This document shows positions 4,890 through 18,935 of a stretch of DNA of 33,399 bases, in pieces. The notes beneath the pieces were generated by a model. It was given only the letters and a program-made list of their open reading frames with translations. It searched no databases and was not told the origin of the DNA. Source of the DNA: Prevotellaceae bacterium (GTDB lineage: Bacteria > Bacteroidota > Bacteroidia > Bacteroidales > Bacteroidaceae); the NCBI GenBank assembly GCA_030531085.1, contig JAUNOM010000027.1:1-33399 (forward strand), written 5' to 3'. A program made the position numbers and the translations under genes. How positions within the stretch are numbered: the stretch's first letter is position 1; every line of letters begins with the position of its first letter.

Positions 4890-5195
4890 ATGAGTCAGAA
4901 AATCCGTATCAAGCTCAAGTCTTACGACCACACTCTCGTTGACAAGTCAGCCGAGAAGATTGTTAAGGCTGTAAAGGCTACAGGCGCTATCGTCAGTGGA
5001 CCAATTCCACTCCCTACACATAAGCGCATTTACACTGTGAACCGCTCTACCTTCGTTAACAAGAAGAGCCGTGAACAGTTCCAGCTCTCAGACTACAAGC
5101 GTCTGATAGACATCTACAGTTCAACAACCAAGACAATCGACGCTCTCATGAAGCTCGACCTTCCTTCTGGTGTTGAGGTAGAGATTAAGGTGTAG
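4890..5195 (+). CDS. rpsJ: 30S ribosomal protein S10 (uS10)
   Basis: S10 is a 30S head protein, also known as NusE in antitermination complexes with NusB. The 101-residue product has the expected start [14 protein letters not shown], the block [17 protein letters not shown] near residue 38 and the end [11 protein letters not shown]. In most bacteria it is co-transcribed with rplC just downstream. Here it is the last gene of its operon: a strong intrinsic terminator begins 36 bp after the stop, and the next ribosomal gene, rplC, is 13.9 kb away. Confidence 0.98.
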
Positions 5196-5377: not shown

Positions 5378-8185
5378 ATGAATAAGTCCGTTATAATCAT
5401 ACTACTCCTTCTATATTCTATCTGCGGTTATGCGGATTGCATCGACTCATTGGAGTTGAGCATACGCAATAATCCGCAGATACAGGAGAAGGTGTATATA
5501 CATACGGACAACCAGTGCTATTATCTTGGCGACACCTTGTGGTATAAGGCTTATGTTACCCGTGCTGATGATTTGCGGCCTACGGACATTAGCCGTATAC
5601 TTTATGTGGAGCTGCTCACCCCTGACGGTTATCTTGTGGAGCGGCAGCAGTTGCGTTTGCGGAGAGATGGCAGTGCAAAAGGTCAGTTCGCCTTGAAAGA
5701 CAGTCTCTATTCTGGGTACTATGAGTTGCGTGCATACACACGGTGGCAGCTTAACTTTAATGTGACGCATAAGAAGTATTACAGTATAAACCGCCATGTG
5801 TTCTACAGAAAAGATTTTGAACGTGATTATTTCCGTGATTATGAAGGGCTGTACTCACGTGTGTTTCCTGTATATGAGAAACCGGACACCATTGGTGACT
5901 ATGCGGATAAACGCATAATACCACGCCCCAAGCAACGTATATATGTGGATAAGCTGAAACTAAATGTCGCCTTCTTTCCGGAAGGGGGACAGCTGGTGCA
6001 GGGCTTGCCATGCCGAATGGCTTTTGAGGTGACGGACCAGAACGGAGCGGCTGTTGATATAACCGGCTGTTTGGACAATGGACAGGTGTTGCGAACAGAG
6101 TACTTGGGGCGTGGCACCGTTGTTGTCACACCGGATGAACAGAGAATGAAGGCACACTTTGAATGGGCAGGAAAGGAGTATTCCTTTAAGCTGCCGCGGG
6201 CTGTGATGGCAGGGTGCGCGATTATGTACAGTCACAGTGATGGCATACTGCACTGCAGGGCAGTGGGTAAAAGGATAGCAGCCGTGTCGATAGCCTGCCG
6301 TGGTAGGGTCAGCAACTTTATAAGAGTAAAGGGAGAGGGGGATTCTCTTGTATTGAATGTTAAGGGAATGGGCCTGCCCACAGGGGTTAATGACATCGTG
6401 GTATACGATGATTATGCAAACCCTATAGCCGCAAGGCAGATATTCGTGAACAACAATGATGTTGGGGTAGAGTTGAGTGCCAGTCTGATGAAGGCAGGTA
6501 CAGATACTGTTATAGAACCTTATCGGACTACGGTTGGGCCGTACGATGCTGTGACAGTGTCAGTAAATAGTGGAGAAAGTGGAAGGAAACAGTTGAGGAG
6601 TGTCACTGTATCTGTTCGCGACACGAGAAGTGATGAGTGCACGTATGATGATGGTAACATTCTTACAGACATGATACTTGCAGGAGACCTAAAGGGTTTT
6701 GTGGCAAATCCGGAATATTATTTCAATGGCATTGACGATAAGCGCCAGCGGCATCTGGATATGCTGATGATGGTGCAGGGGTGGCGCAAGTATGGCAGGA
6801 GGGAGAAGATACGATATGATCCGGAAAGGACCCTGACGTATGAGGGATGTGTGTTCAAGACCCCGGACAACCTAAAGCTGTCAAATGACATAGGAGTTGA
6901 GGATCTGTCTGATATGAACAGTGAGGAAAGCAGTATGGAAAAGGAGACTGATGATATAGTGAATAAGGCGAGGAGTGAGGCTGAGTCATCAGGAATATAC
7001 GGCCGTGCTGATACTCAAGACAGTGATGACGAGGAGGAATTCACACCGGAAGAGTTTACAACGGAGCAGCAGATAAGTAGTGGAGTGTTGAACAGGAAGA
7101 ATGATAAATTATGGAAAAAGGAGATTATAGTGGAGGCAGAGCTGATAAAAGACGGATATGTTGCCAGTGTATCATTGAGGCCAGACTCCAAAGGACACTT
7201 CGTGTTCCAGATACCGGAATATTATGGACAGGCCGTTTTGTTCGTTACAGCCTATCAGCGCAAGGACTCTCTGAAGGAAAGTCTGGTAAGTCGTGGCAAT
7301 GAAGAGTTTGGGGTCATGGAGTATCCGGACCTGTATGTGAAGAGGGACTGGTTCTTTCCTAACTTTATTTCTCCCTATTCATGGTTTCAGACTCATACAC
7401 CGGAAATGCCGTTGGATACATATAGTGATGTTTTTTCAGAAGAAGAGACAGACAGTGTGGCGGCTTCAGTGGTTTTGGATAACTTTACAGTCCGGAAATT
7501 CAGAAGGACCAAACTTGCTCTGCAATATGACAAACCTGCAATAAGAAAGGATGCCTATGACTTATATAACGATGTTACGGACTGCGGACTGTCATACGGT
7601 ACATTCACTGTTGAATTTCCTCTACAGGCTGCTACGTTTATGTTCGGATATCTTGGTATGCCTATAGACTTTAAGGTTAGGGGAACGGTGGATGGCATCA
7701 CCTATTACACCAACTATCCTTCTAACCCTTATGTAACAAAAAAGGAGAAAACAAGACCTCTTTCTTTAGTACTTCTAAGAGCCTGTAATGACTTAAGCAG
7801 GATAAAAGACTTCTGTTTGCTGTCAGATTATGACAAGCGTGCTGACACACGCCTGCAAATAGGAACGGGTATAGAGGACATTACAACGAACATAATACCA
7901 GTGTCGGATGAAGGAAGACGGTATGTCTATAAGGCGCGCCGTTATATTTATCCGGGATATGCCGTGGCAGAGGAGTTCTATTCGCCAGATTATTCTAAGG
8001 CCAGGCCAACAGAGCCCGTAGACTATCGCCGTACTCTGTATTGGAATCCAGATGCAAAACTAAATTCTGACGGTCAGTTTTCCACCATAATATATACGGG
8101 CTCGCGTGAGTGCCGCATAAGTGTGAATGCCTGCGGAGTGGGGGCCGACGGCCGGATTTATTATACGGGCAGCAGGAAAGATTAG
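5378..8185 (+). CDS. Secreted MG2/macroglobulin-like domain protein
   Basis: This is a large exported protein of 935 residues. A short signal peptide (hydrophobic core VIIILLLLYSIC) ends at a likely signal peptidase I site GYA|DC near residue 19. The lipobox is poor, so a lipoprotein is less likely. The first mature domain, with EKVYIHTDNQCYYLGDTLWY (about residues 38-57) and GYYELRAYTRW near residue 115, resembles the MG2 domain of the alpha-2-macroglobulin-like proteins that Bacteroidetes export to the periplasm or outer membrane. An acidic linker (residues about 500-560) is followed by beta-rich sequence. No thioester motif (CxEQ) and no TonB-receptor barrel were seen. The function is unknown; family members are often hypothetical surface proteins. 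It is a single gene between a terminator and a repeat array and has no evident link to translation. Confidence 0.65.
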   Translation: MNKSVIIILLLLYSICGYADCIDSLELSIRNNPQIQEKVYIHTDNQCYYLGDTLWYKAYVTRADDLRPTDISRILYVELLTPDGYLVERQQLRLRRDGSAKGQFALKDSLYSGYYELRAYTRWQLNFNVTHKKYYSINRHVFYRKDFERDYFRDYEGLYSRVFPVYEKPDTIGDYADKRIIPRPKQRIYVDKLKLNVAFFPEGGQLVQGLPCRMAFEVTDQNGAAVDITGCLDNGQVLRTEYLGRGTVVVTPDEQRMKAHFEWAGKEYSFKLPRAVMAGCAIMYSHSDGILHCRAVGKRIAAVSIACRGRVSNFIRVKGEGDSLVLNVKGMGLPTGVNDIVVYDDYANPIAARQIFVNNNDVGVELSASLMKAGTDTVIEPYRTTVGPYDAVTVSVNSGESGRKQLRSVTVSVRDTRSDECTYDDGNILTDMILAGDLKGFVANPEYYFNGIDDKRQRHLDMLMMVQGWRKYGRREKIRYDPERTLTYEGCVFKTPDNLKLSNDIGVEDLSDMNSEESSMEKETDDIVNKARSEAESSGIYGRADTQDSDDEEEFTPEEFTTEQQISSGVLNRKNDKLWKKEIIVEAELIKDGYVASVSLRPDSKGHFVFQIPEYYGQAVLFVTAYQRKDSLKESLVSRGNEEFGVMEYPDLYVKRDWFFPNFISPYSWFQTHTPEMPLDTYSDVFSEEETDSVAASVVLDNFTVRKFRRTKLALQYDKPAIRKDAYDLYNDVTDCGLSYGTFTVEFPLQAATFMFGYLGMPIDFKVRGTVDGITYYTNYPSNPYVTKKEKTRPLSLVLLRACNDLSRIKDFCLLSDYDKRADTRLQIGTGIEDITTNIIPVSDEGRRYVYKARRYIYPGYAVAEEFYSPDYSKARPTEPVDYRRTLYWNPDAKLNSDGQFSTIIYTGSRECRISVNACGVGADGRIYYTGSRKD

Positions 8186-8219
8186 TGCAGCATCCGTATC
8201 TTTCGCACAAAACCATCCC

Positions 8220-8256
8220 AAAAGCTATCAGATTGCCTTGTAATCAGATAGCTTTT
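8220..8256. terminator. Hairpin after the MG2-like gene, possible terminator
   Basis: AAAAGCTATCAGATT (8220-8234) and AATCAGATAGCTTTT (8242-8256) are inverted repeats matching in 14 of 15 positions around a 7-nt loop. A-rich and T-rich ends make it look like a bidirectional terminator. It overlaps the first unit of the 22-bp repeat array, so its role may instead belong to that array. Confidence 0.45.
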
Positions 8257-8323
8257 ACCTTGTAATTTGATAGATATTGCAAGGTAATCAGATAGATATT
8301 ACAAGGTGATTTGATAGCTTTTG
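8236..8323. repeat. Tandem 22-bp degenerate repeat array (four units)
   Basis: Four back-to-back 22-bp units lie at 8236-8257, 8258-8279, 8280-8301 and 8302-8323. Each carries AT, two variable bases, then GATAG at the same offset (8247, 8269, 8291, 8313). The first two units begin CCTTG and the last two begin CAAGG, the reverse complement, so the border motif switches orientation in mid-array. An inverted CTATC half-unit precedes the array at 8225-8229. There are no unique spacers, so it is not CRISPR. The 22-bp period is about two helical turns. The rest of 8186-8622 is AT-rich non-coding DNA apart from the hsdR promoter. Confidence 0.7.
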
Positions 8324-8556
8324 CAGTGCCGTAGTTGAATTTTCCAATCATTAGAAATCCCATATGGTTGATGTTTATTGTGGAATATTCGTTTAACAAT
8401 TTTCTAACCCGAACTTTGAGATTATTGTCCGGATGTATGTTGTCCTGCAAATACGCGAGGCAATATAATTGTGTATAAAGTTTATTTGGGCGAATACGAA
8501 TACGTTAAGTCAGTATATGCCTTTTAGTCACTTTTTGCGAAAAAATGTAAAAATAA

Positions 8557-8587
8557 TTGGAGTATCAAATATAATTCACTATTTTTG
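8557..8587 (+). promoter_or_regulatory. hsd operon promoter
   Basis: TTG (8557-8559), a 20-bp spacer and TATTTTTG (8580-8587) fit the Bacteroidetes promoter pattern, 35 bp before the hsdR start codon. hsdR, hsdM, the DUF1016 gene and hsdS follow on the same strand with small gaps or overlaps and probably share this promoter. Confidence 0.65.
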
Positions 8588-8622
8588 CAGAAACAAACTT
8601 CCGATAATGTTACTTATTATAT

Positions 8623-11427
8623 ATGTCACCAGAAGAAAAAGCGCGTTTAGTGATAGATGAAAAACTCAACCAAGCTGGTTGGGTTGTTCAAGATATGAAA
8701 GACTTTAATCGTTACGCATCATTGGGTGTGGCTGTCAGAGAGTACAGGACAAATGATGGTGACGAGGTGGACTATGCCCTTTTTGTTGAAGGAGAACCTG
8801 TTGGGCTCATTGAAGCAAAGGCAGAAGAAGAGGGCGTCCATTTGTCGTCAAAGGCAAGTGAGCAGAATCTCCGGTACGTCAAGTCTGGGTTAAAGGGAAA
8901 CTATGATAAAAAGGATATGCGCTTTATCTATGAAGCCACAAACATAATCATTGAATTCACAGATTTGCGTGATCCCAAACCTCGCCTAAGGACTATCTAT
9001 AATTTCCACCGTCCCGAAAGTTTGTTGGAACTTATAAAGGATTACAAATATAATGGCAATAAGACATTGCGGGGAAGGATGCAGGAATTTCCTGATTTAC
9101 CCAAAGCAAACTTCCGCCAGTGTCAGACCACAGCAATCACACAACTGGAGCAATCCTTTTCCAACAACAACCCTCGTGCCTTAATCCAAATGGCAACTGG
9201 TGCGGGCAAGACTTTCACGGCAATCACCAACACCTATCGTTTGCTTAAATTTGCGAAGGCTAAACGTGTGTTGTTTTTGGTTGACACTAAAAATCTTGGA
9301 GAACAGGCAGAGCGTGAGTACAAAAATTTCCAGCCATACGACAGCACATCCAAATTAAGTGAGCTATACAATGTCCAGCGCATTCAAACCTCGAATATAC
9401 CAACCGAAACAAAAATTTGTATCTCCACCATCCAACGAGTATATTCCATGCTCCGTGGTGAGATTGACAAGTTCGTAGATGATGCAGATGAAGAATCAGG
9501 CAGCGTATATAATGGCTCGCCACGCGAAGTCACATACAACAAGACATATCCGCCGGAATTCTTTGATGTGATCATCATTGATGAGTGTCACCGTTCCATA
9601 TACAATCTTTGGAGACAGGTGCTTGATTACTTTGACGCTTTTCTTGTTGGATTGACAGCCACGCCCAACAAAGACACTTTTGCCTTCTTTAATCAGAATG
9701 TGGTGAGCGAATACACCCATGAGCAAGCCGTAAACGACGGAGTGAATGTTGGCGCTTTTGGTACTTTTGTCATAGAGACCAAAAAGTCAAAGCAAGGAGG
9801 TATGATTGCCTCTATCAACCAAAAAATAGAGGTGCGTGACAAACGTACTCGTCTTCAGAAATGGGAATCTGCCGATGAAGAAATTTCTTATGTTGGAAAG
9901 GAATTGGATAACTCTGTGGTAAATAAATCACAGATACGTTTGATATTGCAGACCTTCAAGGCCAACTGGCAAAAGTGGGAATATTTCAAGGATAGAAAGG
10001 AACTGCCCAAGACGCTGATATTTGCCAAAAACGACAGTCATGCAGCAGACATAGTGGAAATAGCCCGTGAGGTGTTCGGAGAGGGAAATGATTTCTGCAA
10101 GAAAATCACTTACACTTCCGAAGAGGACGAACAGAGTCTGCTTTATGCCTATCGCAATGAATACAATCCAAGGATTGCCGTCACGGTGTCAAAGATTGCG
10201 ACAGGCACAGATGTAAAAGCTATCGAGATACTTGTTTTCATGCGCGACATTCGTAGCGAAAACTATTACGAGCAGATGCTTGGACGTGCCCGGCGTACAC
10301 TTGGTAAGGAGGAACTTATAAAGTCTTCACCTTCAGCTCATTCGTGTAAGTTGGGGTATGTGATCGTTGATGCCGTTGGTGTAACGAAATCGGAAAAGAT
10401 GTCGCGAGGCAAATGTGGTGGAGACTCACAACCCTCTATCCCTTTCAAGAAGCTCTTGGACAATGTGGTTACCGGAGACATTAGTGAGGAGACCTTTGGT
10501 ACTCTTGCTACAAGAATAGAGCGTTTGGGCAAGATTCTGACAGACAAGGAGCGTGAAAAGTTCAAATCCATCTCAGGTAATGTTGATATTCAAGATTTGG
10601 TGGTAGCTATGAAGAAAGCCCATGACACAGACGAAGTTGAAGAGACTATTAAGCGTGAGCACAAAGACTTCAATACGCTTTCGCCAAAAGCGCAAGACGA
10701 TATTCGCAAGGACATCATAAAGGAAAGATGTAAACGTGCTTCCATGCCACTCCACCAGCCTGAGGTCAGAAGATTCTTGATGACGATAAGAAGTTCAAAT
10801 GAGCAAACTATCGACCCGGCTCTTGACTCCTTGATAAACGCAGGGTTTACCGATGATGTTGACACCAACAAAGACAGCATACGTCAGACGCTTAAGGAAT
10901 TTATCAATAAGCATAAGGACGAGATAACAGCCTTGCAGATTATCTATAATCAGGAATTCAGACACCGTCACCTGACGGAAGCGATGATAAAAGACCTCTA
11001 TGAAGAGATGAAACGCTACAATGCCTCGCTGCAGCAGGATTTGATATTCTCTGCTTATGAGACAGAGAAGAAATCTGTTCTGAGAGAGCTTGTTGATATC
11101 ATTCAAATTATCCGTTATGAATGGATGCAGATACCAGAACTGATACCATTCGCTGACGGAGTACGCAAACGGTACAAAGATTGGATATTCGACAAGAACA
11201 AGAACAAAGGCGGTGCGCGTGGCGCAAGTTCTGAGCCATTTACTTCGGAGCAAATGGCATGGCTTGAAATGATTCGCGACTATATCGCTAAGAATGCAAG
11301 CATGAAAGTCGAAGCACTGGAACTTGGCGTGTTCAAGAAAAATGGCGGCGCGGCAAAGTTCTTCCGACTGTTCGGCAACCAATGGGAAATTATTATAAAC
11401 GAGATGAACGATGCTCTTGTGGCATAA
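8623..11427 (+). CDS. hsdR: Type I restriction enzyme R subunit (EcoEI-like)
   Basis: HsdR is the ATP-dependent translocase and nuclease subunit of a type I restriction complex. The 934-residue protein has an N-terminal PD-(D/E)XK nuclease site (D50, E64-A-K66), the SF2 motor motifs ATGAGKT (191-197), DECH (320-323) and LTATP (near 344), a second RecA-like lobe with ATGTDVKAIEILVFMR and QMLGRARR, and a C-terminal region that would contact HsdM. Layout and length match the EcoEI (type IB) subfamily. All key residues are present, so it is predicted active. It is followed 6 bp later by hsdM. Confidence 0.95.
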   Translation: MSPEEKARLVIDEKLNQAGWVVQDMKDFNRYASLGVAVREYRTNDGDEVDYALFVEGEPVGLIEAKAEEEGVHLSSKASEQNLRYVKSGLKGNYDKKDMRFIYEATNIIIEFTDLRDPKPRLRTIYNFHRPESLLELIKDYKYNGNKTLRGRMQEFPDLPKANFRQCQTTAITQLEQSFSNNNPRALIQMATGAGKTFTAITNTYRLLKFAKAKRVLFLVDTKNLGEQAEREYKNFQPYDSTSKLSELYNVQRIQTSNIPTETKICISTIQRVYSMLRGEIDKFVDDADEESGSVYNGSPREVTYNKTYPPEFFDVIIIDECHRSIYNLWRQVLDYFDAFLVGLTATPNKDTFAFFNQNVVSEYTHEQAVNDGVNVGAFGTFVIETKKSKQGGMIASINQKIEVRDKRTRLQKWESADEEISYVGKELDNSVVNKSQIRLILQTFKANWQKWEYFKDRKELPKTLIFAKNDSHAADIVEIAREVFGEGNDFCKKITYTSEEDEQSLLYAYRNEYNPRIAVTVSKIATGTDVKAIEILVFMRDIRSENYYEQMLGRARRTLGKEELIKSSPSAHSCKLGYVIVDAVGVTKSEKMSRGKCGGDSQPSIPFKKLLDNVVTGDISEETFGTLATRIERLGKILTDKEREKFKSISGNVDIQDLVVAMKKAHDTDEVEETIKREHKDFNTLSPKAQDDIRKDIIKERCKRASMPLHQPEVRRFLMTIRSSNEQTIDPALDSLINAGFTDDVDTNKDSIRQTLKEFINKHKDEITALQIIYNQEFRHRHLTEAMIKDLYEEMKRYNASLQQDLIFSAYETEKKSVLRELVDIIQIIRYEWMQIPELIPFADGVRKRYKDWIFDKNKNKGGARGASSEPFTSEQMAWLEMIRDYIAKNASMKVEALELGVFKKNGGAAKFFRLFGNQWEIIINEMNDALVA

Positions 11428-11433
11428 CAATAT

Positions 11434-12954
11434 ATGGCAGACAATACGATAAGCAACAAAGTATGGCAAATCGCCACTGTCCTGATGGATGGCGGTGTGT
11501 CCAATAGTGATTATTTGGAGCAAATCACATTCTTGCTCTTCTTGAAGATGGTGGATGAGAACTCTCACATGCCAACACCTTTTCGTTGGAAAGGCATAGA
11601 ACTTCCTGATGATTGTCAATGGGATTTACTTATATCCAAGAATGGTGAGGCACTGAAAGACCACTATAATCAAATTCTGACCACGTTGTCAAAGAAGACG
11701 GGTATGATTGGCGAAATCTATCGTGGTGCTCAAAATAAAATTTCCTCTCCAGTCCATTTGCGCAAGGTGATTGACATGATAAATGGTATTGAATGGAACT
11801 CTTTGAGCGAAGATGTCAAAGGCGATATTTACGAGAGTCTTTTGGAAAAGATTGCTCAAGACACCAAAAGCGGCGCAGGTCAGTATTTCACCCCGCGAGC
11901 CTTGATCAAAACCATTGTGAAGTGTGTCAATCCCCAGTTGGGAAAGACCATTGCCGACCCATGTTGTGGCTCTGGAGGCTTCCTGCTCGCTGCTAAATCG
12001 TATATGGATGAGCAGAATCCTGGTGAGGAAGAGAACGAGAAACTGAAATACAGCACGTTCTATGGCAACGAGATAGTACCGAATACTTACCGTATGTGTT
12101 TGATGAATCTCTTACTTCATGGCATCGGTGAGTTCGGAGGAGAGCCTCCTATCAAGTGTGTTGATAGCCTAGCCTCGCAGTCTGGTGACAGTGATTTGCG
12201 TGATTACGTGATGACCAATCCTCCGTTTGGAAAGAAGTCTTCTACCATGATAGAGGTGGTTGAAAAGGACAAGGAAACTGGCGAAGAGGTAGTAAAACTG
12301 AAACGTGAGCAGGACAACTATGTCCGCAACGATTTTATAGCCGTAACCTCAAACAAACAACTCAACTTCGTTCAGCATATCAAATCAATGTTGAAAATCG
12401 GTGGCACAGCCGCTGTTGTCCTGCCCGACAATGTTCTGTTTGAGGGTGGTGCTGGTGAAACGATACGTAAGAATCTGCTTGCATCATGCGACCTACACAC
12501 CATCTTACGCTTGCCAACCGGCATATTCTATGCACAGGGGGTTAAGGCCAACGTGTTGTTCTTCGAGAAGAAACCCACAACAAGCACCCATCAGACCAAA
12601 GAGGTGTGGATATATGACTACCGCACGAACATCAAGCATACATTGAAGCAAAATCCGCTTACGGAGAGTAGCCTTGACGATTTTGTCGCTTGCTACAAGC
12701 CCGATGACAGATACCACCGGGTGGAAACATATAATGCGGAAACCAACCCGACAGGTCGTTGGCGCAAGTTTTCTTACGAAGAGCTTATCAGCCGTGACAA
12801 GACCAGCCTTGATATAACATGGCTGAAGTCGGGTGAAGAACAGGATGATTGCACGCTTGCCGAGTTGCTGGACATTATCGAAGAGAAAAGTAAAAACATT
12901 AACAATGCCGTAGCAGAGTTGAAGAAACTGATGGCTAATATATCCGAGGAATAA
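11434..12954 (+). CDS. hsdM: Type I modification methyltransferase subunit M
   Basis: HsdM transfers a methyl group from S-adenosylmethionine to adenine N6 in the sequence chosen by HsdS, and pairs with HsdS in the methyltransferase and with HsdR for restriction. The 506-residue protein has an N-terminal helical HsdM domain, the SAM-binding motif DPCCGSGGF (from D175) and the catalytic motif NPPFG (from N262). The block SGAGQYFTPRALI before motif I is typical of the family. It starts 6 bp after the hsdR stop. It appears intact. Confidence 0.96.
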   Translation: MADNTISNKVWQIATVLMDGGVSNSDYLEQITFLLFLKMVDENSHMPTPFRWKGIELPDDCQWDLLISKNGEALKDHYNQILTTLSKKTGMIGEIYRGAQNKISSPVHLRKVIDMINGIEWNSLSEDVKGDIYESLLEKIAQDTKSGAGQYFTPRALIKTIVKCVNPQLGKTIADPCCGSGGFLLAAKSYMDEQNPGEEENEKLKYSTFYGNEIVPNTYRMCLMNLLLHGIGEFGGEPPIKCVDSLASQSGDSDLRDYVMTNPPFGKKSSTMIEVVEKDKETGEEVVKLKREQDNYVRNDFIAVTSNKQLNFVQHIKSMLKIGGTAAVVLPDNVLFEGGAGETIRKNLLASCDLHTILRLPTGIFYAQGVKANVLFFEKKPTTSTHQTKEVWIYDYRTNIKHTLKQNPLTESSLDDFVACYKPDDRYHRVETYNAETNPTGRWRKFSYEELISRDKTSLDITWLKSGEEQDDCTLAELLDIIEEKSKNINNAVAELKKLMANISEE

Positions 12955-12997: not shown

Positions 12998-14062
12998 ATG
13001 TCAACAGAGTTAACAAACATACAAGAGCGAGATTACAACGAAATACTGCTACAAGCCGTAGCAGTTATCGAATCATCTCGCTCGCAAATCGCTCGCAAAC
13101 TAAACGAATCAGTTTCTAATGCTTACTGGAACATTGGAAAGCTTTTGTATGATAGGAAGTTAGAGGGCAAGCATGGAGATAGTGTCGTAAAAAGGTTGTC
13201 CTATGACTTGAAAACAAGATTCCCTCATATAGGACTTTCGCCACGCCAACTATGGAATATGAAGAAATTCTATGTCCGTTACTCCAATGCCGACCCAAAA
13301 CTGCTACAGAGCGTGGCAGTTTTGCCGTGGTCGCATAATTTGTTGTTGCTCAATAAGAATGTAGATGATGGCGCGACAATGTTTTATGCCCACGAAACTG
13401 TTGCCAAGCACTGGAATCGCGACCTATTACTCAATGCAATTAACATGAAGATGCATGAGACGCATAAACTTGTTCCACTTGACAACAATTTCTCACGTGT
13501 ATTGTCAGCTGAACAAGCAGCCTATGCTAATGAGGTGTTCAAAGACAGATACAATCTCGGCTTTTTGGGTGCGACCAATCCTATTCTTGAATTAGAACTG
13601 GAGAGCCGGCTGGTTTCTAAAATCACCCGCTTCTTGATGGAATTGGGCAAAGGCTTCACTTTCATTGGCAACCAGCACGTGTTGGAGTATAACGGCAAGG
13701 AAAGCCGTGTGGATATGCTGTTCTTCCACAGAGGCTTGCGAGCCCTTATTGCTATCGACCTAAAAATTGGAATATTCAAACCTGAATATGCAGGAAAGAT
13801 GAATTACTATCTTTCACTGCTTGATCGCTTGGAGCGTGGCGAAAACGAGAATCGTTCTATTGGTATCATACTTTGTGCAGAAAAAGACCATGTTGATGTG
13901 GAACTTGCGCTCGAAGATTTCCATAAGCCCATTGGCGTTGCTGACTATTCTTTGATTGTACCAAAAGAAGAACTGCAAAAAGTCCTCACTGACGAAATAC
14001 GTGCATTCGAGGAAGATGTAGAGAGCAGCAAACGCTTGGAAGAAGATAAAAAGAATGATTAA
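12998..14062 (+). CDS. DUF1016/YhcG-type PD-(D/E)XK nuclease family protein
   Basis: The protein has about 354 residues in two parts: an N-terminal DUF1016 domain (ARKLNESVSNAYWNIGKLL, LSPRQLWNMKKFY, LPWSHNLLLL) and a C-terminal PDDEXK nuclease domain with D239 in SRVDMLFF and D254-L-K256 as the likely catalytic residues. YhcG-type genes are often found beside type I restriction loci. The exact role is not established; DNA cleavage or repair linked to restriction is a guess. It starts 43 bp after hsdM and its stop overlaps a possible hsdS start by 8 bp, so it is in the operon. The frame is open to a GTG at 12971, but the ATG at 12998 gives a better N-terminus. Confidence 0.85.
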   Translation: MSTELTNIQERDYNEILLQAVAVIESSRSQIARKLNESVSNAYWNIGKLLYDRKLEGKHGDSVVKRLSYDLKTRFPHIGLSPRQLWNMKKFYVRYSNADPKLLQSVAVLPWSHNLLLLNKNVDDGATMFYAHETVAKHWNRDLLLNAINMKMHETHKLVPLDNNFSRVLSAEQAAYANEVFKDRYNLGFLGATNPILELELESRLVSKITRFLMELGKGFTFIGNQHVLEYNGKESRVDMLFFHRGLRALIAIDLKIGIFKPEYAGKMNYYLSLLDRLERGENENRSIGIILCAEKDHVDVELALEDFHKPIGVADYSLIVPKEELQKVLTDEIRAFEEDVESSKRLEEDKKND

Positions 14063-14063
14063 G

Positions 14064-15494
14064 ATGGACACTAAGCAATTACGTCAAAAGATACTCGACC
14101 TTGCCATTCATGGTAAGCTCGTGCCACAAGACCCGAACGATGAACCTGCATCTGTCTTGCTTGAACGAATCAAAGCAGAGAAAGAACGACTGGTGAAAGA
14201 GGGGAAAATTAAGAAAAGTCGAAAGCCAACCAAGACTTCCGATACGCCCCATTATCCCTACTTGCTGCCGAATGGATGGAAATGGTGCAGGTTGGAAGAT
14301 ATTGCATACGTTGCGTCGGGTAGTACACCTGAAAAGAGTGCCTTTGAGTCTATAGAAGTGCCTTATTTAAAAATGTACAATCTTCGCAATCAGAAAATTG
14401 ACTTTGAGTTTCATCCGCAATATATAAAGCGAGAGGTTCACGAAGGCAAACTGAAACGCTCCATGGCTGTTACTGGCGATTTGTTGATGAACATTGTTGG
14501 GCCACCACTGGGAAAGCTGGCTATAATACCAGACACCATACGAGAATGTAATTTCAATCAAGCGGCAGTGATGATAAGACCTTATTTGTATAAGGACGTA
14601 ATCAACGTATATCTTTTCTGCTATTTGGAAGAAATGTCTGAAATAAATTCTATAACAACAAAAGGAACAGCAGGACAAGACAACATTTCTTTGACACAAT
14701 CTCAAAACATGAGAATAGCCTTGCCTCCACTTGCCGAGCAACGGCGAATAGTGGAAGACGTGGAACATTGGTTTGCTTTAATTGACCAAATAGAGCAAGG
14801 TAAAGCCGATTTGCAGACTGCCATCAAGCAAGCCAAAAGCAAAATCCTTGACTTCGCCATTCATGGCAAACTCGTACCGCAAGCCCCGAATGACGAGTCT
14901 GCCATCGAACTGTTGAAGCGCATAAATCCCGACTTCACACCTTGTGATAACGGGCATAGTGAGAAGTTACCACAAGGATGGTATCAAACAAAATTAGGGA
15001 CAATTGGAATATGGCAATCTGGTGGTACACCTAGCCGTTCAAATAAATCTTATTATGGTGGAAATATACCATGGCTTAAAACAGGAGATTTAAATGACGG
15101 ATTGATTACGGATATTCCAGAAAGCATAACAGAAGAGGCTGTCTCAAATTCTTCTGCTAAAATCAATCCTACAGGGAGTGTGTTAATTGCAATGTATGGA
15201 GCAACTATTGGGAAATTAGGAATATTAACTTTCCCGGCAACCACAAATCAAGCATGTTGCGCTTGTATAGAGTTTAATGCCATTATTCAATTATACCTCT
15301 TTTATTTCCTATTGTCGGAAAGAAGTGCATTTATATCAAAAGGAGGAGGTGGAGCACAACCCAATATATCAAAAGAAATAATTGTAAATACATTTATTCC
15401 TTTGCCACCTCTTAGTGAACAACAACGTATTGTTCAAAAAATAGAAGAACTATTTTCTGTTCTGGATAATATTCAAAATGCCTTAGAAGTGTAA
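14064..15494 (+). CDS. hsdS: Type I specificity subunit S, expressed copy
   Basis: HsdS recognises the bipartite DNA target of the type I complex, each half read by one target-recognition domain (TRD). The 476 residues read: N-terminal conserved segment (ILDLAIHGKLVPQDPNDEP, 1-58), TRD1 (about 60-215), central conserved helix (LPPLAEQRRIV, WFALIDQIEQGKADLQTA, then a second copy of the AIHGKLVPQ block, about 216-290), TRD2 with SGGTPSRSNKSYYGG (about 300-445), and a C-terminal helix with PLSEQQRIVQKIEELF. An ATG at 14055 overlapping the previous stop is an alternative start. This is the only hsdS copy with an intact N-terminus behind the operon promoter. Inverted repeats shared with the silent copy lie precisely before TRD1 (14242-14255) and TRD2 (14916-14957), so either TRD can be exchanged by DNA inversion. 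TRD2 is visibly more AT-rich than its surroundings. Confidence 0.93.
   Translation: MDTKQLRQKILDLAIHGKLVPQDPNDEPASVLLERIKAEKERLVKEGKIKKSRKPTKTSDTPHYPYLLPNGWKWCRLEDIAYVASGSTPEKSAFESIEVPYLKMYNLRNQKIDFEFHPQYIKREVHEGKLKRSMAVTGDLLMNIVGPPLGKLAIIPDTIRECNFNQAAVMIRPYLYKDVINVYLFCYLEEMSEINSITTKGTAGQDNISLTQSQNMRIALPPLAEQRRIVEDVEHWFALIDQIEQGKADLQTAIKQAKSKILDFAIHGKLVPQAPNDESAIELLKRINPDFTPCDNGHSEKLPQGWYQTKLGTIGIWQSGGTPSRSNKSYYGGNIPWLKTGDLNDGLITDIPESITEEAVSNSSAKINPTGSVLIAMYGATIGKLGILTFPATTNQACCACIEFNAIIQLYLFYFLLSERSAFISKGGGGAQPNISKEIIVNTFIPLPPLSEQQRIVQKIEELFSVLDNIQNALEV
14242..14255 (+). repeat. Inverted repeat IR1, expressed-copy side (TRD1 border)
   Basis: ATACGCCCCATTAT is repeated in reverse orientation at 18030-18043 upstream of the silent hsdS. 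It lies at codon 60 of hsdS, exactly where the conserved N-terminus gives way to TRD1 (TPHY in both copies, same frame). Inversion between the two sites would move the silent TRD1-TRD2 set behind the hsdS start. Confidence 0.75.
14781..14818 (+). repeat. 38-bp identity block within the central hsdS repeat
   Basis: These 38 bases (encoding IDQIEQGKADLQT) recur exactly in inverted orientation at 17473-17510 in the silent copy. They are part of a roughly 190-bp imperfect inverted repeat (14767-14957 against 17334-17524) covering the central conserved helix of both hsdS copies. Confidence 0.8.
14916..14957 (+). repeat. Inverted repeat IR2, expressed-copy side (TRD2 border)
   Basis: This is a perfect 42-bp inverted repeat with 17334-17375. 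It encodes the segment ending INPDFTPCDNGH just before TRD2. Identity stops at the first bases of the TRD2 linker on one side and one base before AAGCGC on the other, which marks it as the likely crossover region. Inversion of the roughly 2.5 kb between the sites would swap TRD2 and flip the recombinase gene. Confidence 0.85.
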
Positions 15495-15513
15495 TCAAAT
15501 ACACTTCTAAAGG
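15481..15513. terminator. Hairpin between convergent hsdS and recombinase genes
   Basis: CCTTAGAAGTGTA (15481-15493) pairs with TACACTTCTAAAGG (15500-15513) with one bulged base, around a 6-nt loop. It overlaps the last codons of hsdS and sits 12 bp from the recombinase stop, so it may stop transcription from both sides. No long T-run follows, so confidence is moderate. Confidence 0.5.
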
Positions 15514-15524
15514 CTGATGTGACT

Positions 15525-16328
15525 TTACCAGTTCACCACTTTATCCACAATCTTCTGTTGCTCGCTGGCAGTCCTGCGAAGATAGATACGAGTGGTTTCT
15601 ATGCTTTCATGTCCCATAAGGTCGGCAAGTAGAGCAAGGTCGTTAAAACGTTCAAGGAAGTTTTTAGCGAAACGGTGACGGAATGAATGAGGATAAACGA
15701 CTTCCTTGTTCATTCCGTATTTTTCAGCGAAGTGCTTGAGTTGGGAGGCTATACCACGAGTGGTAATACGTTGTCCAAAACGGTTCAAGAAGATATAGCC
15801 AGACGTTAGACCTTGATTCTGCAACCATTTCATAGCCTCTATTCGTAAGTTTTTGGGGATGTATAGCCGTCGAATCTTTCCGCCTTTGCTATACAAATCA
15901 AGATAGCCCACCGATACATGCTCCACCTTGATATGGAGTAATTCGCTCACTCTGGCACCTGTGGCAGCCATAAACCATACGATGAAATACCATTCATCAT
16001 AACCATCAGCCTTAAGTTTGGCTTTGAGAAACTTGTAATCGGCATCACTGATTACATTCTCCAAGAAGTTCTTTTGCTGCACTTTGACAAACTTCACTTT
16101 CAGCTTGTCTTGCTTCGTGAATTCCAAATACTTGTTGATGCCTTGCAGACGGAGGTTTACCGTCTGCGGTTTGAAGTTCTCTACGAGATAACCCTTGTAC
16201 GCCAAGAGATTCTTCTTGTTCACCTCCCCATAGTGGTTGAGGAAATACTGCACCGTCCATACATACGATGTCACGGTGTTCTTTGCAAGATTAGTCTTGC
16301 TCAAATAGTTTTTGAATTTTGTTACCAT
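15525..16328 (-). CDS. Tyrosine recombinase, probable hsdS invertase
   Basis: This is a 267-residue tyrosine recombinase with an N-terminal SAM-like core-binding domain (KNTVTSYVWTVQYFLNHYGE) and a C-terminal catalytic domain. The catalytic set is complete: R126 (GARVSELL), a lysine near 148-151 (SKGGK), H214 and R217 (HSFRHRF), H240 (LMGHES) and nucleophile Y249 (TRIYLRR). Related recombinases beside type I loci in Bacteroidetes and other bacteria carry out hsdS inversion, and its position between the hsdS copies, inside the segment bounded by the IR1 and IR2 repeats, fits that job. It is convergent with hsdS and divergent from the orphan TRD cassette. An ordinary element integrase is the alternative, but no other element genes are nearby. 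No clear promoter was found in the 45 bp upstream. Confidence 0.9.
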   Translation of the reverse strand: MVTKFKNYLSKTNLAKNTVTSYVWTVQYFLNHYGEVNKKNLLAYKGYLVENFKPQTVNLRLQGINKYLEFTKQDKLKVKFVKVQQKNFLENVISDADYKFLKAKLKADGYDEWYFIVWFMAATGARVSELLHIKVEHVSVGYLDLYSKGGKIRRLYIPKNLRIEAMKWLQNQGLTSGYIFLNRFGQRITTRGIASQLKHFAEKYGMNKEVVYPHSFRHRFAKNFLERFNDLALLADLMGHESIETTRIYLRRTASEQQKIVDKVVNW

Positions 16329-16373
16329 ATATCATTATTTTAAATGAGACAGGTAACAATATAAGGTTTACGC

Positions 16374-16406
16374 AACGGGCATTATACGCAGTTGCCTGAT
16401 GGATGG
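16374..16406 (+). repeat. Inverted repeat IR3, orphan-cassette side
   Basis: These 33 bases match 17310-17342 in reverse orientation with one mismatch. They cover the NGHYTQLPDGW coding segment at the start of a TRD2. The nine bases AACGGGCAT are common to all three TRD2 borders in the locus (14949-14957, here, and 17334-17342). Confidence 0.8.
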
Positions 16407-16862
16407 CAACGTGCATCAATGTCAGATATATGCTCGTTAGTTGACGGAAAGAAGTTGCAAGGCACAGGATATCCTAACCTCGACGTGAAATATTTGCGTG
16501 GCGAACACGAGGCAAAAACACTTAACTCAGGTAAATTCGTATCAGCCAATACACTAATGATATTGGTGGATGGCGAAAACTCTGGTGAGGTGTTCCGGAC
16601 TCCAATAGATGGTTATCAAGGAAGTACTTTTAAGCAGCTCTCTATCAATGATAATATGAACATCGAGTATGTGTTACAAGTTATCAACTTGCACAGGAAG
16701 ATACTGCGAGAGAATAAGGTTGGCTCTGCCATTCCACATTTGAATAAGAAACTTTTCAAGGCAATTGACGTACCTATTCCACCTTATAAGGAGCAGCAAA
16801 GGATTATAGAAACCGTAAATAAAGCTTTTGTGGCTTTGGATATGATAACGGAGAGTTTATAA
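16374..16862 (+). pseudogene. Silent orphan hsdS TRD2 half-cassette
   Basis: This is a promoterless 3' half of an hsdS gene. It reads in frame from NGHYTQLPDGWQRAS through a third, distinct TRD2 (DGKKLQGTGYPNLDVKYLRG, then SAIPHLNKKLFKAIDVPIPP) to a C-terminal helix (KEQQRIIETVNKAF) and a stop at 16862. It has no N-terminal conserved region, no TRD1 and no plausible start codon; the TTG at 16392 is simply the Leu of QLPDGW. It is in the same orientation as hsdS and tail-to-tail with the silent hsdS, whose stop is 3 bp away. It should be read only after inversion places it behind a TRD1, so it is a storage cassette rather than a degenerate gene. Confidence 0.85.
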
Positions 16863-17309
16863 GCCCTACATTATCGTATCTAATTGTGCAAAGATGTCGT
16901 GAATGGCATGAACGATTCTTTTTTGCTCTGCTTTTGGTGGTAACGGAATTTCTAACTTTGAATATTCGGAAATCCAATATCGCTTATGGGTGTTGCCAAC
17001 CAATCTGGTAATACTCATAAACATTGCCACATAATCAATCTCAATCTCCTTGTGTATTTTTAGAATCTTCATGGCCGAAGATTTGACCTTGAAAGGGAAA
17101 TCCACTAATTTTGAGTCTGTTGTAAAATCATCAAAGATTATACAAGGAAGATTTGAGTATATGCCTGTATCCTCATTAGTATATCCAATTATGAAAGATT
17201 TACCCGCTGTCAGAACAGGAGTTGAATAAGAGTCATCATAAGCCGTTGAATTTACAATATAAGCTGTAGGTTGTTCATAATCTACAATTTGTTCAAGCCT
17301 ACAAACCGT

Positions 17310-17342
17310 CCATCCATCGGGCAACTGCGTATAATGCCCGTT
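17310..17342 (-). repeat. Inverted repeat IR3, silent-copy side
   Basis: Partner of 16374-16406 (32 of 33 bases). Inversion of about 0.97 kb between them would exchange the orphan TRD2 with the TRD2 of the silent hsdS. It partly overlaps IR2 in the nine bases 17334-17342. Confidence 0.8.
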
Positions 17343-17375
17343 ATCACAAGGTGTGAAGTCGGGATTTATGCGCTT
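17334..17375 (-). repeat. Inverted repeat IR2, silent-copy side
   Basis: Perfect 42-bp partner of 14916-14957, in opposite orientation, placed just before TRD2 of the silent hsdS. Confidence 0.85.
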
Positions 17376-18029
17376 TAGCAATTCAATGGCTGGCTCGTCA
17401 TTCGGGTCTTGTGGTACCAACTTGCCATGAATAGCAAGGTCAAGAATTTTGCTCTTGGTTTGTTTGACGGCTGTCTGCAAATCGGCTTTACCTTGCTCTA
17501 TTTGGTCAATCAAAGCAAACCATCTCTCTATTTCTGTTACTATACGATATTGTTCAGCCAAAGGAGGTAATGGAATTTGTAAATCGGTAAAAATTCCTTT
17601 ATGAACTCTTTGCTGTCCAACAACTCCTTTGAAATATTTTGTTCCCTCGCTTATATACCATTGTGACTTAAAGAGATATAGATAGAATTTTGCATGAATG
17701 TTTAATGGACGCAAGATAACTAACTCAGTAGTGCCTGCGCCATAATTATTAGGGAGATTTTGAAATATCGTTGATTTGAGATTTTCAAAGCAAGGAGATA
17801 TTTTTGCTATACCTATGTCTCCATTTTGAAAGTGGCAATATCCTTTTTTTACTTCTTTCCAAATGCGTTCCTCAAATTGATGTTTTCCAGAAAATCCACC
17901 ATCGACACAAGCCATAGGAATAAACCCCACACTTGTATCATCTGTTATTTCAGACTTTGGGTTAAGACAGAATAATTCAGAAACAGGAACGGATTTCCAA
18001 CCTTCAGGCACCTCAAACGGCACGTTCTC

Positions 18030-18043
18030 ATAATGGGGCGTAT
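18030..18043 (-). repeat. Inverted repeat IR1, silent-copy side
   Basis: The 14-bp partner of 14242-14255 in opposite orientation, at the 5' edge of the silent hsdS. Sequence similarity between the two hsdS copies ends about here, so this is the outer border of the invertible locus. Confidence 0.75.
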
Positions 18044-18075
18044 GTATAGTAACTTTGTATTCACCCTTTTTGCGA

Positions 18076-18261: not shown

Positions 18262-18870
18262 ACTCTATAGAAAGACTTCCAAGAAGCACACTACGAAGGC
18301 CACCAACATCAAAAACCGCGTAAGCATACACGAAAGGCCAACGGAGGCCAACGGGGAGCGCTTCGGTGACTGGGAGATGGACCTCATCGTGGACAAGGAC
18401 CAGAACGCCATCCTGACACTCGTGGAAAGAAGCAGCGACCGCTTCCTCATGGAGAAGCTCAAGTACGGCAAGCAGGCCATGCCGCTGGCAAGGGTCGCAT
18501 GGAGGCTGCTGCTGCCGTACAAGGGGGAAGGACTCAAAACCATCACAACAGACAATGGTTCAGAGTTTGCCGCCCACGAATGGCTGTCAAAACAGCTGGG
18601 AGGTGTACCCGTCTACTTCACCGACTCATATTCCTCATGGCAGAAAGGAAATATAGAAAACACCAACAAGCTCATCAGGCAGTACATACCAAAAGGAACA
18701 GACATCAGCACCGTAACTGATAAGAAAATTGCAACAATACAGGCCAAAATCAACCGAAGACCAAGGGAAAAACTAAATTATCTCACACCTAATGAGGTCT
18801 TTTTCAAACATTATGTATAACTTTGCAGACAACTTGCACTTGCTGGTTGACTCTATATATGACTCTATAT
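18259..18870. mobile_element. Remnant of an IS30-family insertion sequence
   Basis: The segment contains a 5'-truncated IS30-type transposase gene and is bounded by an 11-bp direct repeat TTGACTCTATA (18259-18269 and 18847-18857). A further TGACTCTATAT follows at 18860-18870, one base after the second copy. No matching terminal inverted repeat pair was found, so the element is unlikely to move by itself. The repeats may mark a deletion end-point or a target duplication. Confidence 0.6.
18263..18820 (+). pseudogene. IS30-family transposase, 5'-truncated
   Basis: The frame is open from just after the TGA at 18260-18262 and encodes about 185 residues of the catalytic core. It has SIHERPTEANGERFGDWEMD with the first Asp of the DDE triad, LVERSSDRF, TTDNGSEF with the second Asp, and WQKGNIENTNKLIRQYIPKG with the Glu. 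LNYLTPNEVFF is the usual IS30 end. The N-terminal helix-turn-helix part (roughly 150 residues) is missing and no ATG begins the frame before 18377. Codons are richer in C at third positions than in the neighbouring hsd genes, which suggests separate origin. It lies 84 bp before the rplC promoter. Confidence 0.85.
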
Positions 18871-18903: not shown

Positions 18904-18935
18904 TTTGCGTGATTCGGAAAAAAGTTGTACCTTTG
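18904..18935 (+). promoter_or_regulatory. Promoter of the S10-spc ribosomal operon (before rplC)
   Basis: TTTG (18904-18907), a 20-bp spacer and TACCTTTG (18928-18935) form a near-perfect Bacteroidetes promoter. The 28 bases at 18912-18939 match the rpsL promoter core at 1522-1549 in 26 positions. It begins 34 bp after the last TGACTCTATAT repeat and would restart transcription of the ribosomal genes cut off from rpsJ. The leader is about 155 nt. Confidence 0.85.

Follow-up and report, generated by a model that had tools for sequence, protein, structure and literature searches.

The question raised by the window, a 33,399-base contig from a Prevotellaceae bacterium that constitutes the whole stretch of DNA analysed here and belongs to a 2.37-Mb draft genome that is 81% complete, is whether its type I restriction-modification locus can change its target sequence by DNA inversion. 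An earlier note on this DNA had proposed such a switch, acting on the target recognition domains (TRDs) of the specificity subunit HsdS, and we remain highly confident that recombinase-driven inversion is the best explanation. Between rpsJ and rplC the genes in order are one for a protein with an MG2-like stretch, hsdR, hsdM, a YhcG/DUF1016 gene, a complete hsdS and a recombinase gene; these are followed by an orphan TRD2, a second, inverted hsdS that lacks its 5' end, and part of an IS30 transposase gene. The hsdR gene (8623-11427, plus strand) encodes a restriction subunit of 934 amino acids with ResIII and EcoEI_R_C domains, and hsdM (11434-12954, plus strand) an adenine methyltransferase subunit of 506 amino acids with N6_Mtase and HsdM_N domains; both are intact open frames and adjoin the variable hsdS. 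The complete hsdS (14064-15494, plus strand; start codons at 14055 and 14064 are both possible) holds TRD1a and TRD2a in two Methylase_S stretches and is the presumed expressed copy. Next to it lie the tyrosine recombinase gene (15525-16328, minus strand; 267 amino acids; Phage_integrase, E 6.5e-25), the orphan half-cassette TRD2c (16392-16862, plus strand; Methylase_S, E 2.1e-12) and the presumably silent hsdS (16866-18043, minus strand; Methylase_S), which carries TRD1b and TRD2b; its frame reads open from the TRD1 site onwards, and no ATG precedes TRD1. All these elements thus lie where the earlier note had placed them, and its count of two different TRD1 and three different TRD2 sequences holds, the five TRDs being 19-33% identical to one another.

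The TRD borders carry inverted repeats, again as claimed earlier. Repeat analysis places a perfect 14-bp TRD1 repeat at 14242-14255 (plus strand, core GCCCCA at 14246-14251) and 18030-18043 (minus strand, core at 18034-18039), with no further copy in the window; in a shuffle control, even a 12-mer common to the two flanks arose in just 13 of 2000 shuffles. The expressed TRD2 is preceded by a repeat at 14916-14957 (plus strand, core CGGGCA at 14951-14956) that matches 17334-17375 exactly over 42 bp, inside a 268-bp inverted repeat of 80% identity, and the orphan copy at 16374-16406 (plus strand, core at 16376-16381) matches 17310-17342 over 33 bp at 97%. The repeats of the silent TRD2 accordingly span 17310-17375 (minus strand, core at 17335-17340). 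The reading frames agree at these borders, with TPHY ahead of TRD1 and NGH ahead of TRD2. We then performed all inversions between inverted copies in silico, using as exchange points the 14-bp TRD1 repeat and an 8-bp string that all three TRD2 sites share. Eight configurations were reached, encoding six different HsdS proteins of 476, 474, 457, 455, 453 and 451 amino acids, all open and full-length. The idea of switching among up to six HsdS specificities is therefore supported by the anatomy, and also by the relatives described below, and is predicted to apply in this organism. In the state of the window, the recombinase gene is flanked by direct repeats, namely the orphan site and the site ahead of TRD2 in the complete hsdS, and excision of the recombinase would therefore be possible in principle.

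To place the recombinase, we considered the best 80 of 91 recombinase loci from a scan of genome contigs, with identities from 95% (Phocaeicola coprocola) down to 57%. These derive from Bacteroidota, Treponema, Streptococcus and a few others, and the Streptococcus pneumoniae 19F homologue is 66% identical. R126, K148, K151, H214, R217, H240 and Y249, which we take to be the catalytic residues, are unchanged in all five aligned recombinases, and the best relatives of solved structure, by sequence, are XerC-like, XerA and XerD proteins. Congruent with the earlier description, the invertible segment thus contains a complete tyrosine recombinase. The same note did not recognise the arrangement of the locus; it is however the commonest one for this recombinase family. 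With hsdM in reach, the order of two TRDs, tail-to-tail orphan, recombinase and two inverted TRDs recurs in 30 of the 81 loci, window included (29 of the 80 relatives), while 8 loci lack the orphan, in 4 from streptococci the orphan and the recombinase stand in the opposite order, and 27 are cut or irregular. The SpnIII locus shows the same TRD order when read on the other strand, with the recombinase gene alone reversed relative to the orphan. Thus, the layout is ordinary for its recombinase family, and the parts worth following are the mismatch between cassette and enzyme core and the rule for the crossover core, both described below. Within the genus the recombinase is present in 22 of 398 genomes, window included. 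The Phocaeicola coprocola locus (L015) carries two recombinase copies (95%), at 8109-8909 and 10001-10801 in opposite directions, and six TRDs.

Natural inversion was observed among the relatives. One case is a pair of loci from Hoylesella nanceiensis DSM 19126 (L035) and Hallella seregens ATCC 51272 (L036). As far as base 8995 they share 99.9% identity, from base 11369 on 99.3%, and the part in between is inverted (97%). Both edges fall on AACGAGCAT, which contains the TRD2 core, and the two loci share all five TRDs at 99-100% identity, the TRD2s of the expressed and the silent slot being swapped. Since the recombinase lies inside the invertible segment, the state of a locus can be read from the strand of its recombinase gene relative to hsdM, and in the 54 loci of the recombinase tree (L060, with a stop in its sequence, was omitted) the two are on the same strand in 25 and on opposite strands in 29, window included. 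On this tree at least 20 changes of direction are needed, with a mean of 18.3 for shuffled labels and 440 of 500 shuffles as low, so that orientation does not cluster. Similar TRDs also recur in different slots: between 42 loci we found 85 TRD pairs of at least 75% identity, 30 of them in the same slot and 55 in another slot, with TRD1 matched to TRD2 in 4.

What, then, could decide which TRDs swap with one another? The repeat of the two full TRD2s in the window ends where the orphan/silent TRD2 repeat starts, the overlap being AACGGGCAT, and the same holds for many relatives. The portion common to all copies is about 6 bp, situated between a GATA-like and an ATTAT arm, and reads GCCCCA at the TRD1 sites and CGGGCA at the TRD2 sites of the window. 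We located the corresponding sites in the relatives by a scored search, after a strict pattern had missed many of them. The core is identical within loci in 39 of 42 cases for TRD1 (permuted mean 9.8), in 38 of 42 for the full TRD2 copies (5.0) and in 30 of 34 for TRD2 and orphan (5.5), the permutation figures being descriptive since related sequences share descent. The TRD1 core equals the TRD2 core in none of the 42 loci, cores vary from locus to locus, and the arms differ while the core is common within a locus. The simplest reading of these alignments would be that strand exchange needs an identical core, so that the TRD1 and TRD2 pools stay separate. It fits the account in PMC7096588, in which inversion at the inverted repeats IR2 and IR3 is reported to depend on IR1-like sequences that they contain. 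Core identity would thereby offer a testable base-level rule for which TRDs can swap.

In the mechanism that we propose, the recombinase would pair inverted copies of these short sites, each with a GATA-like and an ATTAT arm around its 6-bp core, just ahead of each TRD. As GCCCCA is common to the TRD1 sites and CGGGCA to the TRD2 sites, TRD1s would swap with TRD1s and TRD2s with TRD2s, and two TRD1s combined with three TRD2s would yield six HsdS proteins, and presumably six target motifs, through eight DNA configurations. Expression would be confined to the copy that has the hsdS 5' end, downstream of hsdM and yhcG, and the remainder would serve as a silent store. The expected outcome is a mixed population with differing N6-methyladenine patterns and restriction barriers, and possibly with effects on gene regulation.

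Several observations weigh against this mechanism. The assembly shows one configuration only; the isomers L035 and L036 come from two named species, so that their inversion is evolutionary rather than an event within one culture; and recombinase-independent switching of spnIII has been reported (PMC6620402). Moreover, 12 of the 81 recombinases are without any TRD found nearby, and the family may thus not be tied to hsdS alone. As for the core, the scored search overlooked the orphan site of the window, which was placed by hand before counting, and mismatches occur in 3 of 42 loci for TRD1, 4 of 42 for TRD2 and 4 of 34 for the orphan. All were kept in the counts; those of L055 (TRD1) and L018 (TRD2) look real, and the remainder look like misses of the site finder.

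The single configuration would also suit a locked relic, that is a cassette acquired whole that no longer switches or methylates, the hsdM/hsdR core being incompatible or the recombinase silent. It would also be in line with the HsdM of the window being just 46-52% identical to the HsdMs beside 23 recombinases of at least 85% identity. Nevertheless, none of the six HsdS frames is interrupted, the recombinase retains its expected catalytic residues, the 14-bp and 42-bp repeats are without a mismatch, and hsdR and hsdM are intact with their family domains, which together leave the relic very improbable. Alternatively, inversion may occur mainly through general homologous recombination between the long repeats, with little part for the recombinase at the short core. 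The 268-bp repeat of 80% identity would be a substrate for it, and in pneumococcus inversion at IR2 and IR3 is reported to be intact in a psrA deletion (PMC4948785), in line with the account of recombination independent of known site-specific recombinases (PMC6620402). However, the TRD1 repeat of the window spans just 14 bp, the orphan and expressed TRD2 copies have only 9 bp in common, and the 6-bp core is common within loci although the arms differ, rendering general recombination as the principal route scarcely probable. The recombinase-driven inversion switch is accordingly preferred: judged from the anatomy and the relatives, the locus is a real six-way specificity switch of known kind and probably working.

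The known kind is the PsrA/CreX (cod, SpnIII) class, of which the locus, by its sequence features, is a member: hsdR and hsdM beside hsdS, a complete and an inverted start-less hsdS, in-frame inverted repeats and a linked PsrA-family recombinase are all present. The cod/SpnD39III/Spn556II locus of S. pneumoniae has five TRDs in the same order and a PsrA-family recombinase (66% identical) inside the segment. For this pneumococcal locus eight inversion arrangements as well as excisions (PMC4948785) and six alternate HsdS proteins (PMC7394358) are described, and PsrA is reported to catalyse the IR1, IR2 and IR3 inversions in vitro (PMC7096588). The repeat lengths given are 15, 85 and 33 bp (PMC7394358) or 15, 298 and 85 bp (PMC4948785), compared with 14, 42 within 268, and 33 bp in the window. 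The enzymes are in contrast remote (best tblastn identities 28% for HsdM and 25% for HsdR), the window has yhcG and the cores differ. Closer to home, Phocaeicola vulgatus ATCC 8482 (L017), P. faecalis (L018) and Xylanibacter rarus (L020) share the layout, recombinases of 93-94% identity and cores that are the same or one base away, but another hsdR/hsdM lineage, with HsdM 50-51% and HsdR 34-35% identical to those of the window. An analogous principle, a fixed 5' part joined to alternative 3' parts via a tyrosine recombinase, operates in the R64-type shufflon. There, the product is a pilin tip, not HsdS.

Switching hsdS genes are reported in pneumococcus (PMC4190663), in 13 species by a genome-wide survey of inversions (PMC5903667), among systems in REBASE, with B. 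fragilis among the commensals (PMC7394358), and among gut invertons (PMC11892184); B. fragilis and Treponema are named among the holders of homologues of the pneumococcal system (PMC4948785). In Prevotella intermedia ATCC 25611 a 2371-bp hsdS inversion with several type I motifs in one culture is reported (PMC5608340), in a main text in which the words recombinase and integrase are absent, and phase-variable restriction-modification systems are named in P. intermedia and P. gingivalis (PMC5690328). We also surveyed the literature on hsdS inversion in Bacteroides, Prevotella and Bacteroidetes, on S10-operon insertions in Prevotella and on YhcG/DUF1016 with type I systems, and among the papers listed, up to 12-25 in the longer lists and without most subscription journals, no title or abstract start concerned the 6-bp core rule, backbone exchange or the rpsJ|rplC junction. 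The present locus links the well-known pneumococcal switch to a recombinase family of Bacteroidota, Treponema and Streptococcus.

The mismatch between cassette and enzyme core extends beyond the three loci above. The recombinase of the window is 93-95% identical to those of L015, L016, L017, L018 and L020, with the same range of HsdM and HsdR identities (50-51% and 34-35%) for all five, which are 91-98% (HsdM) and 87-96% (HsdR) identical to one another in the comparisons listed; towards the HsdRs beside its closest-kin recombinases overall, the HsdR of the window is 33-35% identical. Among the 289 locus pairs with recombinases of at least 85% identity, the median HsdM identity is 85%, and the 27 pairs below 60% comprise 23 with the window and 4 in Treponema. 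In the HsdM tree (eight named Firmicutes loci were kept out of this and the HsdR tree), 42 of the 46 cassette HsdMs form a fully supported group without the window, and a clade of the window with the five loci of closest recombinase was rejected (approximately unbiased test, p-AU 1.75e-57). A position of the window as sister to all 42 was not rejected (p 0.169), and the HsdR tree sets the window on the cassette side with an unstarred support of 91, which is not firm. Because of these two results we limit our claim to a backbone that appears distinct and deep, and do not claim descent from a fixed-specificity group.

Such a group was nonetheless encountered in a search of 393 genomes of the order, where 23 others have an HsdR 45-49% identical to that of the window (E 1e-190 or better). 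Stretches around 20 of these were examined. In 16 of them hsdM is visible, and there a single hsdS, on the same strand, separates hsdR from hsdM; none of the 20, of which several end early, yielded the recombinase. A Myxococcota-labelled metagenome-assembled genome (L073) has an HsdM of 59% and an HsdR of 46% identity, an hsdS and a 69% identical recombinase at a contig end, so that a window-type core and such a recombinase occur together in at least one further case. The HsdR most similar to that of the window in the genus search (67%, G164) lies where its contig ends, in a genome that gave a partial 37% HsdM match only, and says nothing on cassette presence. At the DNA level, similarity to the 24 best cassette loci starts at about 14042-14088 in most, and at 13121, yhcG included, in L025 and L028, and it stops at 18043-18052, at the outer TRD1 site, in L026, L027, L030, L043 and L093. 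A patch of 65-76% similarity to cassette loci was also seen in the 3' part of hsdM. A recombination junction inside hsdM was considered and found unsupported, as identity along HsdM is uneven towards both the fixed and the cassette group. A comparable mismatch is present in Treponema, where L067 and L070 carry recombinases similar to those of L068, L071 and L072 and HsdM is 44-45% identical in four pairs; a single clade of these five HsdMs was rejected (6e-54).

From these comparisons we infer that modules may have been exchanged between enzyme cores, in either direction. We tentatively go further, in a proposal with nearly as much for it as against it, that the hsdS-plus-recombinase segment (about 14050-18052) is a portable module between distant type I cores through which an enzyme with a single target can acquire six, the 6-bp cores being addresses that separate the TRD1 and TRD2 pools. 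In the window it would have been added to an hsdR/hsdM lineage; the nearest relatives of that lineage found in the order keep one hsdS flanked by hsdR and hsdM and show no recombinase of this kind. Treponema would offer a parallel replacement. If true, this would explain how switchable specificity spreads apart from the enzymes.

The YhcG/DUF1016 gene (12998-14062, plus strand), between hsdM and hsdS, belongs to the PDDEXK nuclease family (YhcG_C and DUF1016_N domains; PADLOC PDC-S02). Of the 55 recombinase loci, window included, in which hsdM could be placed, 32 have a relative somewhere in the stretch, and in 30 of these it lies between hsdM and hsdS; identity to the gene of the window is 68-69% in L025 and L028 and 24-36% in other loci. 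An unnamed gene between hsdM and hsdS is mentioned for P. intermedia 17 (PMC5608340).

Finally, the locus lies inside a ribosomal operon, with rpsJ (ribosomal protein S10; 4890-5195, plus strand; Ribosomal_S10) upstream and rplC (ribosomal protein L3; 19098-19712, plus strand; Ribosomal_L3) downstream. The earlier note was right on this position, which is unusual; in the genus, however, the junction is open or split in other genomes too. We drew 120 genomes, window included, 74 of which gave both genes: the gap is at most 150 bp in 38, 150-1000 bp in 11 and more than 1 kb in 14 (window included), and in 11 the genes are on separate contigs. With the junction thus wider than 1 kb or split in 25 of 74, the position was dropped as the main novelty. 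Twenty proteins scanned from the inserts are a diverse set (C5 methyltransferases, VapE-like, RibD and RibAB-like, glutamine amidotransferase/SIS, DsbD and TonB-receptor-like), hence the junction does not look defence-specific. The recombinase lies elsewhere in all seven other genomes in which it and both ribosomal genes were located, and neither rpsJ nor rplC was matched in the stretches around any of the 80 recombinase loci.

An assembly misjoin could produce the same picture, considering that the window is one contig of an incomplete draft, that an IS fragment precedes rplC and that the close relatives G122 and G133 keep a tight junction. Against it, more than 1 kb separates the two genes in 14 of the 63 genomes with both on the same contig (window included), with differing contents and with the one-contig assembly G141 among them, and another close relative, G001, has them on different contigs. 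We therefore regard a misjoin as unlikely, and how a core ribosomal operon tolerates insertions at the open rpsJ|rplC junction of this genus becomes a separate question. The IS30-family fragment (18377-18820, plus strand) is the 3' part of a transposase gene, covering positions 139-266 of 267 of the NCBIfam model. It is followed at 18904-18935 (plus strand) by a match to the -33/-7 sequence that we take to be the Bacteroidetes promoter consensus. The match is 162 bp upstream of rplC, which may therefore have a transcript of its own. Five such matches occur in the window, with 0.96 expected, and two of the five lie within the silent hsdS in antisense direction.

Three further observations concern the surroundings. 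Between rpsJ and hsdR, at 5378-8185, a protein of 935 amino acids has an MG2-like stretch slightly below the Pfam cut-off, and gave no tblastn match in 40 rpsJ/rplC loci or the 80 recombinase loci. Two more Methylase_S matches (L001, L006) lie elsewhere in the same genome on contig C50 (40721-44872), on the same strand and about 3 kb apart, with no Phage_integrase among the matches listed there. Just ahead of rpsL, at 169-1341, the window encodes a predicted AAA-ATPase (PF09820).

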